DNA of 64,000 nucleotides from positions 806,001-870,000 of the forward strand of contig NZ_CP035758.1 of assembly GCF_004208415.1 (NCBI RefSeq). Reading direction: 5' to 3'. Below are positions 21,360 through 31,957 of this stretch, one piece after another; position 1 is the stretch's first letter, and the number at the start of each line of letters is the position of its first letter. The notes beneath the pieces are model-generated. The model ran no database searches. It had not been told where the DNA came from and worked only from the letters and a program-made list of their open reading frames with translations. The translations under genes and the position numbers were made by a program. This DNA is from Ktedonosporobacter rubrisoli (GTDB taxonomy: Bacteria; Chloroflexota; Ktedonobacteria; Ktedonobacterales; Ktedonobacteraceae).

Positions 21360-22424
21360 CTACTCAACTTCTTCGCAGCCGCTCCCGCTCATTATCTTTG
21401 CGACAAATTCGGCGGGTAGCTGGGCCAGGGTCTGCGTAGCCACGGTGAGCTCGCTGTCAGGCGCCAAAACATCCCGGAACAATGTGACGGCATCAGCTCT
21501 GGCTTCCTCGCCCCAGTTATCCCGGAAAAATACATCCCGGGCACACTCGATTACGTCTTGCACCACGCGTTCATAGCGATAGTAGGCAAGCACAATCCAG
21601 TCGATTTCCGCCTCTCCGTATCCCGCAAAAAAGGCCAGCTTTCCAGGCTGCAGCTCGCTATCTGCGGCCGATACTCTTATAAAGAGAAAATCCCGCTCTT
21701 TAGGAGCCAGCATTACTTCATCCCAATCAAGGACAAACACGCGCCCTTGCGCATCACGCAGCAGGTTGGCCGGATGCAGATCGGCATGGCAGATAACATA
21801 GGGCGGATTGCGTTTGTCCAGCACTTGCCCTAGCGTTTCCAGGGCAATAATTGCAGTGTGCAGCGTTGCTTGCTTTTCAAGCCAGGCGGCACGAAGCTCG
21901 CGCCTTGAGGGGCTCGTCTCTTCGTGCATCAAAGCTAGCTGGCTTTCAAAAGCGCGTAGCCAGCGCACATACTCTGTGGTATCAAAGCTCTCTTTGCGTA
22001 GAGCCTCAAAACCAGAGGAGGGCAAGCTAACCTGGTGAACGCGCCGAAAGATTGCTCCTACTTCCTCCCACTGCGCATCAGTCATCCCCGTCCAACTCGT
22101 CTCGCCAACAAGAAAGGGATACACGAGCACGTTCCAGTCATCTATCCGCGTCCACAGGCTGCCGCTTTTGGTAGGAACCGGGGCCACAACTCCTGCAATG
22201 CCTTGCTCTTTCAGATAGTAAGGAATCTGGCTGGTGGGTTCATAAAGCGATCCTTGCTTGACTTTGAGCAAATAGACGCTTCCCTGCTCACTCATTACAC
22301 GATATACGCCCGCGTTAGAATCCAGGCCCAGGGCCAGAAACTCAATTGTCGCGGGACTCAAAGCGTACTGCTCACGGCAACAGGAGTACAAACGTTCCAA
22401 AGAAAGAGCTGGTTGCTCACGCAT
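21360..22424 (-). CDS. Aminoglycoside phosphotransferase-family kinase
   Basis: A 354-residue APH/choline-kinase-fold protein. The catalytic loop is YVICHADLHPANLLRD (about residue 215) and the metal-binding motif VLDWDEVMLAPKERDF, with DWD in place of the usual DxD. The N-lobe has VYLLKVKQGSLYEP with the ATP lysine. Length and layout resemble spectinomycin- or macrolide-type phosphotransferases, but the antibiotic, if any, cannot be named. It is preceded by an unusually long leader (22,425-22,909), which suggests translation-dependent control. Confidence 0.82.
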   Translation of the reverse strand: MREQPALSLERLYSCCREQYALSPATIEFLALGLDSNAGVYRVMSEQGSVYLLKVKQGSLYEPTSQIPYYLKEQGIAGVVAPVPTKSGSLWTRIDDWNVLVYPFLVGETSWTGMTDAQWEEVGAIFRRVHQVSLPSSGFEALRKESFDTTEYVRWLRAFESQLALMHEETSPSRRELRAAWLEKQATLHTAIIALETLGQVLDKRNPPYVICHADLHPANLLRDAQGRVFVLDWDEVMLAPKERDFLFIRVSAADSELQPGKLAFFAGYGEAEIDWIVLAYYRYERVVQDVIECARDVFFRDNWGEEARADAVTLFRDVLAPDSELTVATQTLAQLPAEFVAKIMSGSGCEEVE

Positions 22425-22909
22425 AATCTATAGTATCCTCTCATTTGCTTTATCTTCACTTATATTTCGTTTTCTTCTCTTCCTACTCCTGCTATTCAGC
22501 AGGCACATATATCTTGGCTCAGCATTCTCAACTCCTGCATTATGGCTAAGAGCATCGAGCCAGTGCACCTGGTTAAGCGCAGTAACGCGTAATACAGGCA
22601 AGCGCTCCTATCCTGAGCTGAACGCTACAAGCGCACGAATCACGAAGACAAGGCGCAAAGTCAGAAATTACAAGCATGACAATGTGATTTGCTCAATAGT
22701 AGGTAGAGAGTTTATGGAGAGTACCAATGGAGGCAAAAAAAGGCGCAAAGGCTCCCCAGGCGAAGAAGATTCCCCGAGGCCCGGCTACAAGCGGCTAATG
22801 AAGGGCTTCAGGGAGGACATCACTGCGGATATACATGCATGCCCTCCTTAAGTGCATTTAGTGATAATACTCAACAAAGAGAGTATACTACAGCCACCAG
22901 CCCTGTCAA
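22425..22909 (-). promoter_or_regulatory. Long leader and promoter of the phosphotransferase gene
   Basis: This 610-bp gap (22,425-23,034) holds a minus-strand promoter, TTGACA (22,904-22,909) and TATACT (22,882-22,887) 16 bp apart. The transcript would have a leader of about 450 nt. It carries AAGGAGGG (22,842-22,849), a 13-codon mini-ORF (22,795-22,836, MYIRSDVLPEALH) and then CCTGGGGA...GCGCC followed by seven T (22,735-22,741). The order promoter, mini-ORF, T-run, gene resembles ribosome-sensing attenuators of resistance genes. The ABC exporter leader at 26.6-27.0 kb has the same order. Confidence 0.6.
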
Positions 22910-23034
22910 GCATTCTCTTCGTCACGCTTTCTCTTCTGGCTTGCCGCCACGCCAATTTGGCCACGCTGGCAAGCACGTAGCAGATCGGCCTTATGAGGAT
23001 GCGCACTATCCACGCATCCCCACAAACCTGGGGC

Positions 23035-24804
23035 CTATTCGCTCTGAAGCGCGCCAGTCCACAAGTGTTGCATCTCCTCGCATTCCGTCAATAGTTCGCT
23101 CAGCGTACCTTGCGCTACTATCTGCCCTTCCTGCAAAACAAGGATACTATCGGCGCAGCGTAGCGCTGCTTCGCGGTGGGAAACTACCAGGCACGTGTGC
23201 TCCCTGTGAGCACGGATGCGTTGCCAGAGCTGCCGTTCTGTCTCAGCATCGAGAGCACTTGAGAGATCGTCACAAACCAGGAGTTCCGGCGTGCGAGCGA
23301 ACATGCGCGCGGCAGCCGTACGCTGAATCTGGCCGCCAGAAAGCCTGATCCCTCTGGGTCCGATCAGCGTCTCAAGCCCAACAGCCAGAGTTTCTACGTC
23401 CCGCTCCATAACCGCCAGATAGATAGCCTCCTCAAGCGCGCGCTCAGTGAGCGGGAGACCTAAGGCAATATTTTCGCCAAGCGTTGTGCTGAACAGATTG
23501 GGCCTCTGTCCCGTATAGGCACTCTGTGGTGGAACAAAAAATGCGCCTGGCTTCTTTACAAGTTCGCCATTCCAACATATTTCGCCCTCTTGCTTCGGCA
23601 GCAGGCCGAGCAAGGTTCGCAGCAAAGTAGTCTTGCCAGAGCCGATACGCCCGGTAATTACGATAAACTGCCCCCGCTCCAAGCGAAGATTGATGCTTGT
23701 AATACCCCGTGCAGTACCTGGATAACGATAGCTCACATTTTTCAATTCCAGAAGCTCTAAAGGCTTCTCAAGCCGGGGCAGACCGAAAGGCTCCTGGCTT
23801 GAGACCACTTCCCGGTAGATGGGGCTCGGCATGATCAGCGCTGCCGGCGCCGCATTGGGCAGCAATTCTATTAAACGCTCCTGAGCCACCGCGAGCTGGC
23901 GATAGGCAGTAATCTGCCCTATGACCTCGCCGCTGAACCTGGCCAGCGTAGCCATATAGGCTACGAATAAGGTAAAATCCCCCACAGTAAAGCTACCTGC
24001 CCGCAAAGCGCTTCCCGCCAGAAGCAAAATCAGCCCGGTTCCGATGCTTGTAATTCCTGTCCCAAACACGCCCAACACCACATTGCTAAACAAATTTTCC
24101 TGCAACGAGGTCACGCGGCGTCGATTGTTCAAGCGATGGAAGCGCTTCACAACGCTAGAGGTTGCTCCGGCCACCTGAATAGCCTGCACCACGCCAAACA
24201 TCTCCACCAGGTAACTGCTCACCGCCCCTGACGCCTCGCGGCTCCTGCGCCGATAGCCCTCCACATGCTTGCCAAGAGCGTTCACAATGATATTGCCCAG
24301 GAGCAGAGGAAGGATCGCGACAAGCGTAAGTTGCAAGTTGATGTGTATCATGATGACCAGCGCCACTAGAGTCTCAACGCCCATGCCACCAAAGACAAAC
24401 GCCCACATAATCAGCAAAAAGCCTGGACTTACAGTATCGCGCTGCAGGCGGCTAATCATATCGCCACTATCTCGGGGTAGCGCGCCAGCGCCGGGAAGCT
24501 GTAGCAAATGTTCTAGCAGATTAGCCCGAAGCAGCTCGCGCGTTTTGAAGATGGGCAAACGCTCAGTGAGCATGACAGCGAATAAATTGAGCCCGCGAGC
24601 TAGCATATAGCCCAACATTAAGCCAACCAGGCCCCAGATAGTTGCATCAAGCTGGCGATAGTGCGTCAGACGGTCGAGGATCTGCTGGACAAGTAGGGCT
24701 GGCACTAGCGGCAAGAGGCGGCGCGGCAGCTGCAATAAAACTGTCAAGATGTAATTTTTGCGCGTGAAGATGAGCAGTTGCCAGACAAATGAGCGCGTCT
24801 TCAT
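23035..24804 (-). CDS. ABC exporter subunit with degenerate catalytic site
   Basis: A 589-residue half-transporter: six membrane helices (residues 1-320) then an ATPase domain. Walker A is ITGRIGSGKTTLLRTL, the signature LSGGQIQRTAAARMF is canonical, but Walker B reads LLVCDDLSSALD with Asp where the catalytic Glu is expected. Its start overlaps the stop of the partner gene (ATGA). The pair forms a heterodimer in which the site built on this subunit's Walker motifs should be inactive. Likely an exporter of drugs or peptides. Confidence 0.9.
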   Translation of the reverse strand: MKTRSFVWQLLIFTRKNYILTVLLQLPRRLLPLVPALLVQQILDRLTHYRQLDATIWGLVGLMLGYMLARGLNLFAVMLTERLPIFKTRELLRANLLEHLLQLPGAGALPRDSGDMISRLQRDTVSPGFLLIMWAFVFGGMGVETLVALVIMIHINLQLTLVAILPLLLGNIIVNALGKHVEGYRRRSREASGAVSSYLVEMFGVVQAIQVAGATSSVVKRFHRLNNRRRVTSLQENLFSNVVLGVFGTGITSIGTGLILLLAGSALRAGSFTVGDFTLFVAYMATLARFSGEVIGQITAYRQLAVAQERLIELLPNAAPAALIMPSPIYREVVSSQEPFGLPRLEKPLELLELKNVSYRYPGTARGITSINLRLERGQFIVITGRIGSGKTTLLRTLLGLLPKQEGEICWNGELVKKPGAFFVPPQSAYTGQRPNLFSTTLGENIALGLPLTERALEEAIYLAVMERDVETLAVGLETLIGPRGIRLSGGQIQRTAAARMFARTPELLVCDDLSSALDAETERQLWQRIRAHREHTCLVVSHREAALRCADSILVLQEGQIVAQGTLSELLTECEEMQHLWTGALQSE

Positions 24805-26588
24805 GGAAGCATCTCCTCGGAATGAGCTAACCGCAACAATTTGTAGTAATAGGATGCAGGATCTTTGGCGAGCATGTGACGAGGAGCATATTCCAGCATA
24901 CGCCCTTCGGCCAGGACCATAACCTGATCCACGCGCTCAATCGTGCTCAGACGATGGGCGATCACCAGAGCAGTGCGCCCGGCCATAAGCTGTCTCGTCG
25001 CCCGGATCAGTATCTTCTCGGTCGCCGGGTCCAGACGCGCCGTAGCCTCATCCAGAATGATCAATTGTGGATCTTGCAGGAAGACACGAATACAGGCCAG
25101 TAGCTGAGCTTCTCCAGCTGAAAGCCCGCCGCCATCACTGCTCAGTGCCGTATCCAGACCCTGCGGCAAGCGCCTGTACCACTCAGTGATTCCCAGGCGC
25201 TCAATAGCCTGTAAGATACGCTGGTCAGAAATAGACTCAGTGAAAAGAGTAAGATTGTCACGCAAGGTGCCACGGAACAACTGCACATCCTGCGTTACCA
25301 GTCCAATACGTCTGCGCAAGTCGTCAAGGCGCGCCTGGCGAAGATCCTGGCCACCCAGAAAGACAGAACCGCAGGTAGGATCATAGAAGCGCATAAGCAA
25401 ACGAATGAGGGTCGTCTTGCCGCTAGCAGTTCGTCCAATCAAGCCCATAATTTCACCCGCCGCAAGGCGAAACGAGATATCCTGCAAAACAGGCTGCCCT
25501 TTCTCATAGGCAAAGGAGACGTCTTCAAAGCTCACAGATAGAGCTCCCACAGGGAAATCTACTCCCGGCCCATCCTGAACCCGGCTTTGGGTGTGATAGA
25601 TCTCATTAATGCGTTCGAGACTAGCGACGGCCTGTTGAAAACTGCTAAGTTGCTCTGCCATATCATAGATGTAGGCAAGCAACTGGCCTGTATAGAGCAA
25701 CAACATCACAACAGTGGCAATCGTGAACTGGCCTTGCACAAAAAAGAGCGCGCCAAGGATGAGGGTAATGAGCAGGCTAAGTGCCTCTAGAACCACTTCC
25801 GCGCCCTCAAAGGCTGCCCAGAAGGCAGTGCGCTTCATCTCAGCCGCATCTTCCTGGCGCTGCAAACGAAAATAGCGCCGCAGAATATAGCAGACCGCAC
25901 CACAGGAGGCAATATCTTCAAGACAGGTAAACACTTCACCCCAAAAGCTACTTAGTTCCGCCTGGGTTTGCAAGTGCAGCTTATAGTACGTGATAGCTAT
26001 CTTCTGTATATAGAGTAGGATGATATTGCCCAGCAGAAAGATGGCAGTCATCACAATCCCGAACCAGATACTCTCCCGCGCCATCAGCAGCAGCACGCCC
26101 ACTACCAGGAGACCACAACCCAGGAAACGAATCACAAACTGTGAGAAAAAGTGGGATAGAATCTCTACATCACCATCAACCCGGGCGAGCAACTCGCCAG
26201 GTGTATGGGCCGTGTGGAAGGAGTGATCCAGCTTCAGACAGCGGTACATAAGATCCGCGCGCAACTGATTTGTGGCGTTCCAGCCTACATTCTCAGAGAA
26301 GTAGCTGGCTCCCGCCGAGACCAATCGACCACCAATGGCCACCACAAGATAGAAAATAGCTTGAGTAGTCAAGCTCTGAATTGCGCTATTGTGCTGCACA
26401 TCATCAATAAAGGCACGAATGATCTGCGGACCCAGCAATTCAAGCACAATGCTGCTCACAAGCAAGAATACCATACAGGCAACGCTGAAGCACTGAGAGC
26501 CCAGATAGGTGGCAAATAGCACTCCGTATTGCCGTAGCGCCATTCGTGGTAATACACGGCGACGCTGGCCGGATTGAGAAGCATTCAT
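24801..26588 (-). CDS. ABC exporter subunit, catalytic partner
   Basis: A 595-residue half-transporter with six membrane helices and an ATPase domain. Walker A is IGRTASGKTTLIRLL; Walker B LIILDEATARLDPATE has the catalytic Glu; the signature is degenerate, LSAGEAQLLA. This is complementary to the partner at 23,035: its Walker motifs plus the partner's LSGGQ give one competent ATP site, its LSAGE plus the partner's CDD one degenerate site, as in BmrCD or TM287/288-like heterodimers. First gene of the operon, behind a leader of about 415 nt. Confidence 0.9.
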   Translation of the reverse strand: MNASQSGQRRRVLPRMALRQYGVLFATYLGSQCFSVACMVFLLVSSIVLELLGPQIIRAFIDDVQHNSAIQSLTTQAIFYLVVAIGGRLVSAGASYFSENVGWNATNQLRADLMYRCLKLDHSFHTAHTPGELLARVDGDVEILSHFFSQFVIRFLGCGLLVVGVLLLMARESIWFGIVMTAIFLLGNIILLYIQKIAITYYKLHLQTQAELSSFWGEVFTCLEDIASCGAVCYILRRYFRLQRQEDAAEMKRTAFWAAFEGAEVVLEALSLLITLILGALFFVQGQFTIATVVMLLLYTGQLLAYIYDMAEQLSSFQQAVASLERINEIYHTQSRVQDGPGVDFPVGALSVSFEDVSFAYEKGQPVLQDISFRLAAGEIMGLIGRTASGKTTLIRLLMRFYDPTCGSVFLGGQDLRQARLDDLRRRIGLVTQDVQLFRGTLRDNLTLFTESISDQRILQAIERLGITEWYRRLPQGLDTALSSDGGGLSAGEAQLLACIRVFLQDPQLIILDEATARLDPATEKILIRATRQLMAGRTALVIAHRLSTIERVDQVMVLAEGRMLEYAPRHMLAKDPASYYYKLLRLAHSEEMLP

Positions 26589-27038
26589 GGATTAGCAGTT
26601 CCTCTAACTTTCTGGGTTCAAGAGAAAGCGACACGAGCAACCGCTGAAGTTTATCGGTGGTCTCCGCTCATCCTGCTAAGCACACATGCACATGGAAACA
26701 CCATGGAATTCCATTCGCACAGATATCTTAAAAGCAGCGGGAGCGTTGTTCAGAGAATTAGCATGAAGTGGAGCTTCACCGGTTGCACATGCCGCACACG
26801 CCGGTGAGAGTTACGATTCCACACCCGTTAGAATAGTCTATGGGCCGTAGAAAAACGAGGCGCACGCAGGCAAAAAAGGGCAGAGCAATCCCCAGGGCCA
26901 TAGAAACTAACTTTACCATATGAACTTTGTGGTAAAACAGGCTTATGCCTCATTGCCATCTGTGCATCTCCAGATGAGGATCAAACGGTTAAACAGGTGT
27001 ATAGAAGCGAGTATACAAGATCTTCTCCAGTCTTGCAA
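26589..27038 (-). promoter_or_regulatory. Long leader and promoter of the ABC exporter operon
   Basis: The 582-bp divergent gap (26,589-27,170) has a minus-strand promoter, TTGCAA (27,033-27,038) and TATACT (27,010-27,015), 17 bp apart. The leader holds a mini-ORF of five codons (26,950-26,967, MHRWQ) after CTGGAG, then CCCTGGGGA...GCCC with six T (26,872-26,877), a TCACCGG/CCGGTGA hairpin near 26,777-26,806, and over 200 further bases before the first gene. The arrangement parallels the phosphotransferase leader at 22.4-22.9 kb. Confidence 0.55.
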
Positions 27039-27170: not shown

Positions 27171-27608
27171 ATGTCTGGACGCAAATCACGACGTCAGCGA
27201 GCGCATATAGACACAGACCAGCGAGCGCTTCAGAGGGACGTGCCCATTCCTGGCAAATGGTGGATCGTAAGCATTCCTGGCGCGGCTATAATCGGGGCAG
27301 CTCTGGGCTACTTTTTCCTCTCTAACACGCTCCCCATCGCCTTTAGAGTGCTTCTAGGAGCATTTCTGGTCACAGCAGGCCTGGCCCTCCTGACCTTCTT
27401 TCTCAGGGGAGCCATTCTTGATCCGGGGGCGGCTCTTAGCGCACTCTTCAGCTCCGCTCTAGAAAGCTGCCAGGTGGGATGCTGCCTCTATCTGGCTATA
27501 GCTTTTATCGCACTGTTCGGAGGAGTGAGCGGATTATTGTTCAGCCACGTATTGCTTGCTACAACCCTCAAGAACATAGCCAACGTCATTCCATACATCC
27601 ACTGGTGA
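27171..27608 (+). CDS. Small membrane protein of unknown function
   Basis: A 145-residue protein. A basic, water-soluble N-terminus (SGRKSRRQRAHIDTDQR) is followed by hydrophobic stretches at about residues 32-52, 57-79 and 97-128. AAGGAG lies before the ATG. I do not recognise a family. It is divergent from the ABC exporter operon and followed by a decayed HAD gene. Confidence 0.6.
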   Translation: MSGRKSRRQRAHIDTDQRALQRDVPIPGKWWIVSIPGAAIIGAALGYFFLSNTLPIAFRVLLGAFLVTAGLALLTFFLRGAILDPGAALSALFSSALESCQVGCCLYLAIAFIALFGGVSGLLFSHVLLATTLKNIANVIPYIHW

Positions 27609-27629
27609 CATTCCAAAGGCAATGTCTCA

Positions 27630-28023
27630 TGCTTGCTTCCCGAATGCCTCGATCAGCTGGCGATAAAGGTTATGATAAACTGCATACACTAACCACCCAC
27701 ATTACAAACAATGCGGTAACTGTTACCTATTCGGGCGGGCCATTCCTGGAAGCCTCAGCATTGGGTATCCATAAGGGCTGGGCGCTGGCCGAGCTTTGTA
27801 AGCAACTTGGCTACAGTCGCGAAGAAGTTGTTGCCTTTGGCGATATGCCTAATGATCTTCCAATGTTATCATGGGCCGGAACAGGGATAGCGGTTGCCAA
27901 TGCCCATGCCGCTGTACTACGAGAAGCCGACGAGGTTACCTTACCAACGAAGAAGAAGGTGTAGCTGTATATCTGGAACCACTGCTCACAGAATATCAAG
28001 CAGGAGACGCCACTGCATCGTGA
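27630..28023 (+). pseudogene. Cof-type HAD phosphatase, truncated and frameshifted
   Basis: The reading frame shows only the C-terminal part of a HAD-IIB (Cof) phosphatase: SGGPFLEASALGIHKGWAL, then the motif IV region VVAFGDMPNDLPMLSWAG and VANAHAAVLREADEVT. The N-terminal motif with the nucleophile Asp is absent. After ADEVTL the frame runs to a false end; a shift of one base restores TNEEEGVAVYLEPLL to the stop at 28,021-28,023. It cannot be an active enzyme. Confidence 0.75.
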
Positions 28024-30323: not shown

Positions 30324-31957
30324 CTAGAGCATCGGTCAAGTAATCAAGCGGCATCCTGGAGGTCAGCTTGAAACAACTGGGAGCGGGCCAGAACGTGTAA
30401 ATTGTGGACGACAGCGCAACGGCGCAGATCGAGGAGGTTCTTGCGCAATCCGCGATAGCGAGCACGGCGTCCTTGCCACTGACCGATATGAGCCAGAGTA
30501 TGCTCGACGGCAACCCGTTCGCGCAATTTGGCCCGCCCCTGCGAGGTCTGTTGGAGCTCTCGTAACTCGATGAGCAAGGCTTCATCAGGATGAATGCTCA
30601 CGCTGCGTCCCTTGGAACTGGTGGTGCATTGAGCTTTCAGGGGGCACTCCGCACACGTCTCTTTGGGGAAATGGACTACACCGCCGGGCACAAATGGCAT
30701 CTCCTGCTTGGCGGGACACTGAATGGTCTGTCGCTCCCAGTTCAGCATAAAGGCTTGTTTGTGAAACCGTTTGCCATTGCGAACGGGCCAGGCTTTGCAA
30801 AATACTTCCAGTTCGTCGCCGCGCTCGCGAACCAGATGACTACTCAAATAGGCCCGATCAATATGCAATTCTTTCAAGGAAGCCGCTTGCTGGGCCAAAT
30901 CTTCGCTGATCACTTCGGTCACGCTGGCTTCGGGCGCATTCGCTGGAGTAATACCCACTGCTCGGATGAGACAGGTGTCCAGATCGTGGAGCACATGCCG
31001 CTTGTAGCCATCCACGCGCACGCTGCGACTTTTGCGTCCATGCCGCATCTCGGAATCTTCGACGCTGATGCGTCGATCTTTTGCCACTCCTTTGATCAGG
31101 CTTGCCTTTCCTTTCTCATCGACTTCTACATCTTGCGCCTGGATCTGTTGTGCAACTGAAAGAGACGGCTGAGCCATTTGCGCATCTTCCTGTTGCAGGG
31201 TCTGCACCCAGGTTTCCACGGCTTGTAACACGTTCAAGACCAAGGTCAGCGCCTCATCTTTCTCGATTTGTTGGTCCCAGTCGCGATCCAACGCCGCTTT
31301 CAGACTGCTCTCACAGACTAACTCTGCTCCAGCCTCCTTCGCTACCTCAACCAGATCCCTCTCCTGCTGATCAGCCACCACGCGCATCACCTTTTTGAGC
31401 GCGTGTCCTACCAGGTTATACGTATCCTCGACTCGCCCAGCTCCCCATAATGGGCTGCTATCCAGTGCAGCACGTAATGCCCGTGCTCCAAATCCCTGAC
31501 TCTGGCTGGCAAGCTCGATGGTTCGCTCAATGAGCCGCCGATCCATCTGAGCTTCGATGAGCCGCTTTCGGAAAGCTACCAGTGTGCCTTTGCTGAACGG
31601 TGCCTGCTCCGTATCCAGACAATCCAATACCAACTGCCAGCGTCGATCCATAAGGGTTGCTTCAATCACCTCATCATCCGAGACGCCCGTGTCCGCTTGG
31701 ACAATGGTCGCAAGGGCTAATTGCGCAGGCGGAATGGGAGGCTGCCCACGGAGACTCGGTGCATAGAGCGTCGCCAGCTCTCCTTGAAATGCGTCATCAA
31801 AGAGCTCGTGGCGGTGATGACGGAGAAAGACAAACAATTTCGCTCGTTTGATGAGGGTGATGATAGTCCGCTCAAGAGATGAGAGTTCAACCGGAGGATG
31901 CCAGGTTGAAGGACCCATGTGATACTCGCTTTCCGCAAGCTCTCTGGAATGCTCAAG
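30324..31957. mobile_element. IS1182-family insertion sequence
   Basis: The transposase gene occupies nearly the whole element. Possible short end repeats CTAGAGCATC (30,324) and AATGCTCAAG (31,948-31,957) agree at eight of ten bases in inverted orientation; no target duplication is obvious, so the borders are approximate. Confidence 0.5.
30344..31918 (-). CDS. IS1182-family transposase
   Basis: A 524-residue DDE transposase, intact. The N-terminal domain has FDDAFQGELATLYAPSLRGQPP and the helix-turn-helix region; the catalytic residues are likely the Asp of ALDSSPLWGAGR, the Asp of ELHIDRAYLSSHL and the Glu of ERVAVEHTLAHIGQW. A C-terminal cysteine cluster (CPAKQEM, CAECPLKAQC) is typical of IS1182. 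It lies just downstream of the MarR gene on the opposite strand and may have removed that regulator's target. Confidence 0.93.
   Translation of the reverse strand: MGPSTWHPPVELSSLERTIITLIKRAKLFVFLRHHRHELFDDAFQGELATLYAPSLRGQPPIPPAQLALATIVQADTGVSDDEVIEATLMDRRWQLVLDCLDTEQAPFSKGTLVAFRKRLIEAQMDRRLIERTIELASQSQGFGARALRAALDSSPLWGAGRVEDTYNLVGHALKKVMRVVADQQERDLVEVAKEAGAELVCESSLKAALDRDWDQQIEKDEALTLVLNVLQAVETWVQTLQQEDAQMAQPSLSVAQQIQAQDVEVDEKGKASLIKGVAKDRRISVEDSEMRHGRKSRSVRVDGYKRHVLHDLDTCLIRAVGITPANAPEASVTEVISEDLAQQAASLKELHIDRAYLSSHLVRERGDELEVFCKAWPVRNGKRFHKQAFMLNWERQTIQCPAKQEMPFVPGGVVHFPKETCAECPLKAQCTTSSKGRSVSIHPDEALLIELRELQQTSQGRAKLRERVAVEHTLAHIGQWQGRRARYRGLRKNLLDLRRCAVVHNLHVLARSQLFQADLQDAA

Follow-up and report, generated by a model that had tools for sequence, protein, structure and literature searches.

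Two Conserved Leaders, Probably Ribosome-Sensing Attenuators of Related Design, Precede Resistance-Type Genes in Ktedonosporobacter rubrisoli

The Locus and Its Two Leaders

The window, meaning the whole stretch of 64,000 nucleotides that was analysed, carries on its minus strand an overlapping pair of genes for half-size ABC exporters, together a heterodimeric exporter, and a gene for a phosphotransferase of the APH fold (Table 1). The NCBIfam model nearest to the latter is that of the spectinomycin phosphotransferase APH(9)-Ia. A search of plasmids returned distant exporters only. A transposase-like gene of 524 amino acids lies close to the resistance cluster (30344-31918), and 27479-27964 holds part of a HAD-type hydrolase gene that appears frameshifted and is probably a pseudogene.

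Each unit is preceded by a long leader, here called leader A for the exporter pair and leader D for the phosphotransferase. As originally predicted, the 5' untranslated regions are about 415-450 nt long, with promoters 458 nt (phosphotransferase) and 422 nt (exporter) upstream of the start codons, and each contains a mini-ORF with a Shine-Dalgarno (SD)-like site. The two had also been taken for a single shared design, marked by the motif CTGGGGA...CC-T6/7, which is indeed present at 22759-22735 in leader D and at about 26897-26872 in leader A; the pattern CTGGGGAN{5,12}CCTTTTTT has exactly two matches in the 11.34-Mb genome, both in these leaders, against one for a reversed-pattern control. 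However, the motif site reads CCCAAGGGGYTA or CCCAGGGGATYA in the orthologues of leader A and CCTGAGGGYCC in the relatives of leader D, and, because the orthologues of neither leader keep the motif, it is a coincidence of this genome. Its roles differ as well, being codons in leader A and the terminator 3' arm with U-tract in leader D, and the similarity between A and D among orthologues is marginal (mean local score 13.0 versus 10.4 ± 1.7 for shuffled sequences). The motif was thus dropped as a common element, and the leaders fall into two separable classes: they are real and conserved, but they are not twins.

Near 22,735, one of the two places where a transcript end had been proposed, a terminator-like hairpin is expected; near 26,872, the other, there is none, the T-run being leader-peptide codons without a usable hairpin, so that an end at this site is ruled out. 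Small ORFs that run antisense to both motifs on the plus strand (MESTNGGKKRRKGSPGEE… and MGRRKTRRTQAKKGRAIP…) were set aside, as the frame and SD that are conserved lie on the minus strand. The lack of conservation of the motif would agree with long untranslated regions that regulate nothing and share a chance motif, but promoter, ORF and pairings are kept across genera with compensatory changes, which makes this explanation hardly credible.

Table 1. Features of the two leaders and the genes behind them (window coordinates)
Feature	Coordinates	Strand	Remarks
ABC exporter half 1	24801..26588	(-)	ABC_membrane + ABC_tran
ABC exporter half 2	23035..24804	(-)	overlaps half 1; heterodimeric exporter
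APH-fold phosphotransferase	21360..22424	(-)	nearest NCBIfam model APH(9)-Ia, E 5.6e-52, below model cut-off
Leader A promoter TTGCAA-17-TATACT	27010..27038	(-)	orthologues keep promoter 390-490 nt 5' of exporter
Leader A ORF's SD region (CTGGAG)	26960..26973	(-)	TGGAGACGC conserved in orthologues
Leader A ORF (MAMRHKPVLPQSSYGKVSFYGPGDCS...)	26828..26959	(-)	N-terminal part as in orthologues; core out of frame
Leader A core GCCCTGGGGATTGCTCTGCCCTTTTTTGCC	26869..26898	(-)	orthologues encode A-Q-G-x-T-L-P-F-L-P; best R1 match in window
S0 CTGCGTGCGCC	26859..26869	(-)	P-A-C-A codons in orthologues; partner H2a
H2a TCACCGGCGTGTGCGG	26792..26807	(-)	5' arm of hairpin H2; also S0 partner
H2b GCAACCGGTGAAG	26774..26786	(-)	3' arm of H2; also S3 partner
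S3 CTTCAGCGGTTGCTC	26635..26649	(-)	partner of H2b (12/13) or of ribosome-binding site (10/11)
S4 GAGGAACTGC	26595..26604	(-)	exporter ribosome-binding site; predicted sequestration by S3
Leader D promoter TTGACA-16-TATACT	22882..22909	(-)	promoter present too in relatives L138, L139
Leader D ORF's SD (AAGGAGGGC)	22841..22849	(-)
Leader D ORF MYIRSDVLPEALH-stop	22795..22836	(-)	relatives MHIQFCDAHPEALR-stop, MSIKFDAALPEALI-stop, MSIKFAAALPKALF-stop
CCCTGAAGCCC in leader D ORF, putative antiterminator	22803..22813	(-)	complements hairpin 5' arm
Leader D terminator-like hairpin GGGCCTCGGGG...CCTGGGGAGCC	22750..22782	(-)	-14.5 kcal/mol
Leader D U-tract (T7), 3' of TTTGCGCC	22735..22741	(-)
GGTACTCTCC, hairpin 3' arm partner in predicted read-through state	22716..22725	(-)	95.8% of cells paired

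The Leader of the Exporter Pair

The original prediction would have failed had homologous leaders shared no conserved structure; both conserved structure and covariation are present. Leader A was set beside the leaders of the seven closest exporter orthologues outside this genome, which are 59-72% identical (genomes G004, G005, G010, G016, G017, G020 and G023), and a second copy in G005. Orthologues in the seven genomes share the promoter and an SD-led ORF encoding A-Q-G-x-T-L-P-F-L-P-A-C-A or a close variant. Nine sequences contain the same chain of mutually exclusive helices, S0:H2a, H2a:H2b, H2b:S3 and S3:S4, with the last falling on the exporter ribosome-binding site, and in the window these pair at 11/11, 7/7, 12/13 and 10/11 positions, respectively. 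The S0:H2a helix has 9-11 bp in the orthologues scored (L023, L044 and L029 also carry CTGCGTGCGCC in sequence), H2a:H2b is the pairing CTCACCGG/CCGGTGAG, and S3 and S4 change together, some genera having CGGTTgCTCT/AGAGgAACCG and others GGTTGTCCTC/GAGGACAACC. An extra hairpin between the end of the ORF and H2, compared by eye, changes from GCGGTC/GACCGC to CGCGATC/GATCGCG.

Leader A has no hairpin followed by a U-tract, and neither it nor its orthologues have a terminator with a 5' arm that could pair with the core. Both a helix that would hide the ribosome-binding site (S3:S4) and an alternative upstream pairing that would release it (H2b:S3) are found in the nine sequences, and a helix chain ending on the exporter ribosome-binding site predicts attenuation at the level of translation. 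In the off state, ribosomes would clear the ORF, H2a:H2b would form and S3 would be free to cover the ribosome-binding site; in the on state, an arrested ribosome would lead to S0:H2a and H2b:S3, leaving the site free.

In this genome, the ORF differs from those of all orthologues by two +1 changes, one upstream of the core and one within its T-run, and as a result of these two extra bases the core is not in the reading frame of the SD-led start. The covariance model of the wider family described below (R1) finds the leader A core as its top match in the window, but the match is weak (E 0.042), covers the core only and is out of frame. Leader A may thus be impaired here. A decayed or re-framed relic, or else assembly errors, would leave the helices standing with the core unread in frame and the exporter constitutive or uninducible, and the absence of the exact family pattern from this genome agrees with this. 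Against it, all four helices, the promoter and the SD are intact, the ORF as read crosses S0 and stops before H2a, so that generic ribosome sensing could persist, and family members L230, L231 and L232 in the same genome are intact. Decay of this one copy is possible, if rather doubtful, and would not conflict with the reading preferred for the family at large.

The Leader of the Phosphotransferase

Relatives of leader D (n = 5) were found only by DNA search and a second covariance model, R2. Those in G019 and G020 each stand upstream of an ABC exporter pair, and that in G024 upstream of an MFS-like transporter, a name read from sequence. The copy in G023 (L277) precedes the closest phosphotransferase orthologue, with a gene named from its sequence as TnpB-like (IS200/IS605; L277 2464-3300) in between. 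Most other phosphotransferase homologues lack an obvious leader motif upstream. In G020, leader D is followed by ABC1, ABC2 and then the phosphotransferase, which is 60% identical to that of the window and starts 34 nt past ABC2; leader D in the window thus immediately precedes a gene that elsewhere holds third place in an operon. That it directly precedes the phosphotransferase here, next to a leader-exporter unit unrelated to it (window 21360-26588 compared with L276, G020:C1:5009500-5016500), suggests module shuffling. The fifth relative is an orphan, degenerate leader D copy with no resistance-type gene downstream (L280 / L140, G006:C6:132211-132362). Also seen, about 28 kb past the window, was an apparent remnant resembling the leader D hairpin and T-tract (L166, G000:C1:898050-898096).

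The leader D ORF has 13 codons and the form M-x-I-…-P-(E/K)-A-L-x-stop. Within it, CCCTGAAGCCC pairs with the hairpin 5' arm GGGCCTCRGGG, and ORFs with CCCTAAAGCCC have the arm GGGCTTTRGGG. In L277 and L278, a GAA to AAA change (PEAL to PKAL) is compensated by C to U in the hairpin arm; since it swaps Glu for Lys yet keeps the RNA pair, selection appears to see the RNA pairing. Over six sequences, 91.4% of cells are paired, as against at most 56.5% when slid, with 12 pairs changed on both sides, and none of 500 shuffles reaches this level. Beyond the U-tract lies an alternative partner for the hairpin 3' arm, GGTACTCTC, which is expected to be available only after read-through. The hairpin is not a textbook terminator, because TTTGCGCC separates it from the T7, and its arm pairing is weak in L277 and L278.

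This anatomy predicts transcriptional attenuation. Unhindered translation of the ORF to its TAG would cover CCCTGAAGCCC, letting the 5' arm pair with the 3' arm so that the terminator-like hairpin would halt transcription near 22,735. A ribosome stalled early in the ORF would instead leave CCCTGAAGCCC to capture the 5' arm, the 3' arm would pair further downstream, and transcription would read through into the phosphotransferase gene.

A Leader Family in Ktedonobacteria

The leader A orthologues fit the codon pattern of a wider family, A[QH][GS]xT[ML]PF[FL], which was modelled as R1 with the core GCCCANRGNNNNANTNTGYCC(T/A)TTT in an open short ORF. The core codons GCC-CAN-RGN-NNN-ACN-MTG-CCN-TTY have 38 matches in 47 genomes of the class, compared with none for the reversed-pattern control, and matches to a slightly stricter pattern in 400 genomes of the phylum are confined to the window's own family. 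With R1, 20 of the 47 class genomes give 78 matches at E<1e-6, four of these in this genome, and outside the window's family it matches once in each of two other families of the order. By sequence, the leader A core appears to belong to this Ktedonobacteria-wide family, whose members mostly end in a predicted intrinsic terminator; leader A itself is a core-sharing relative rather than a terminator-bearing member, because the downstream terminator that pairs with the core is absent. Rfam gave no match at or near the gathering threshold in the window or in 10 relatives, with two sub-threshold chance hits, and no description of the leader family was found in open-access papers, so the surmise of an undescribed leader class stands.

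In most members, a strong terminator (e.g., GGCCGTGGGTGATACAGCATTGATCACCCACGGCC-T7) lies 60-100 nt past the core, and the core bases GCCCAYRGCC repeat the sequence of its 3' arm, so that the terminator 5' arm also pairs with leader codons. In 23 aligned members, the alignments being fitted to the model, which favours the model structure, the terminator arms are 91.3% paired with seven double-change pairs, and none of 500 shuffles is as high in percentage or covariation score; pairing of the core with the 5' arm reaches 77.5%, compared with no more than 46% when slid, and its per-sequence covariation is modest, since 7-73 of 500 shuffles do as well, according to the measure used.

The core frame is interrupted by a stop in two of the 81 members collected, as against 16 and 47 for the other frames, and in 79 of the 81 the ORF ends 10-27 codons past the core start. 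Wobble positions 3, 15 and 24 of the core are almost invariant among the 81, and positions 14 and 16 vary. Near-invariant wobble bases suggest constraint on the RNA rather than on the peptide and weaken the idea of a drug-specific stalling peptide; for the TMPFF half (positions 13-27), in which they also occur, a search for a second partner gave a weak excess only. Since wobble positions conserved like coding positions point to RNA-level constraint, a ligand-binding riboswitch or a protein-binding RNA with an incidental ORF has to be weighed. Such an RNA would not account for the open frame with its nearby stop; Rfam families are without a match, a compact conserved aptamer is absent, and conservation falls on the terminator arms and on their copy in the ORF, all of which make it quite unlikely.

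The genes downstream were grouped into clusters that rest on BLAST linkage, with Pfam run on one or two proteins of each: ABC transporters (28), MFS transporters (15), class I methyltransferases (8), GNAT acetyltransferases (6 and two pairs), SpoU-type rRNA methylases related to NshR/TsnR (6), APH kinases (4 and 4), S9 peptidases (3) and MOSC proteins (2). To our knowledge, class I methyltransferases, S9 peptidases and MOSC proteins have no role in resistance. This gene content also bears on the possibility that the leaders sense amino-acid supply through Pro, Phe, Ala or Leu codons, as classical biosynthetic attenuators do. Such codons are abundant in the cores, but runs of a single codon are absent, and what follows the leaders are exporters, phosphotransferases, acetyltransferases and rRNA methylases, and genes for amino-acid biosynthesis are absent from the set examined; sensing of amino acids rather than drugs is very unlikely.

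Known Attenuators and Wider Meaning

Antibiotic-sensing leaders have mostly been described gene by gene, in Firmicutes and Proteobacteria. The closest parallel is bmrB of Bacillus subtilis, a leader peptide gene with alternative hairpins upstream of the heterodimeric multidrug ABC exporter bmrCD, which is induced by lincomycin, erythromycin and chloramphenicol via translation of bmrB (PMC4191407). Leader A resembles it in having a leader ORF and alternative hairpins before a heterodimeric ABC exporter; however, the bmrB terminator lies inside its own coding region (PMC4191407), whereas leader A has no terminator near the core and is predicted to sequester the ribosome-binding site instead. Feature by feature, a conserved SD-led ORF, with translation predicted, is present in the leader A orthologues and leader D, with the core frame broken in leader A of the window, and a terminator with an alternative antiterminator is predicted in leader D and the 23 aligned family members and absent in leader A. 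In ermC-type attenuation (PMC4191407) and the toiL uORF (PMC12121999), a leader ORF is followed by exclusive helices, the last of which hides a downstream ribosome-binding site, as the last helix of leader A would; leader A differs in its additional pairing of leader codons (S0) with H2a, its exporter pair and its peptide. In mef(E)/mel, a transcriptional attenuator with a leader peptide precedes drug efflux genes (PMC4335068), a layout that leader D and the terminator-bearing family resemble, with differences in sequence, host and the breadth of genes under one leader type.

Both leaders are conserved, with leader ORFs, mutually exclusive pairings and compensatory changes, and we infer from these that translation is the switch and that it acts in the directions given above. 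In anatomy, leader D and most family members fit transcriptional attenuation, and leader A fits translational attenuation. Because of the gene content and the precedents of bmrB-bmrCD (PMC4191407), toiL (PMC12121999) and mef/mel (PMC4335068), antibiotics that target the ribosome are likely, by analogy, to be the inducers. We consider it probable that both leaders are ribosome-sensing attenuators of two related designs before drug-resistance-type genes; the ribosome-mediated attenuation originally proposed for them is supported by the anatomy of both, and the single common leader design is not.

For the family, we lean slightly towards a broader account, in which a modular attenuator, whose codons A-(Q/H)-(G/S)-x are an antiterminator copy of a terminator arm, would have spread through Ktedonobacteria and reached eight or more kinds of resistance-type genes (with a dozen copies in one genome) as a cis-encoded antibiotic-response regulon. 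Leader A would be a translational branch of this attenuator, and leader D would follow the same principle in a second design, of independent or ancient origin.

Ktedonobacteria are deep-branching soil bacteria with large biosynthetic repertoires (PMC6497799), and here one leader type stands before exporters, drug-modifying enzymes and rRNA methylases. If this leader type works as predicted, a resistance response would be coordinated without a master regulator, and the leader could be used as bait for unrecognised resistance genes. The terminator-bearing versions and those predicted to hide the ribosome-binding site offer a natural comparison of the change from a transcriptional to a translational attenuator. 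Some of the family leaders (L217, L218, L259-L263 and L267), which end in S-M/V-P-I-S-(R/G)-G-x-P-P and lie upstream of genes for ABC transporter ATP-binding subunits, may be a distinct branch.
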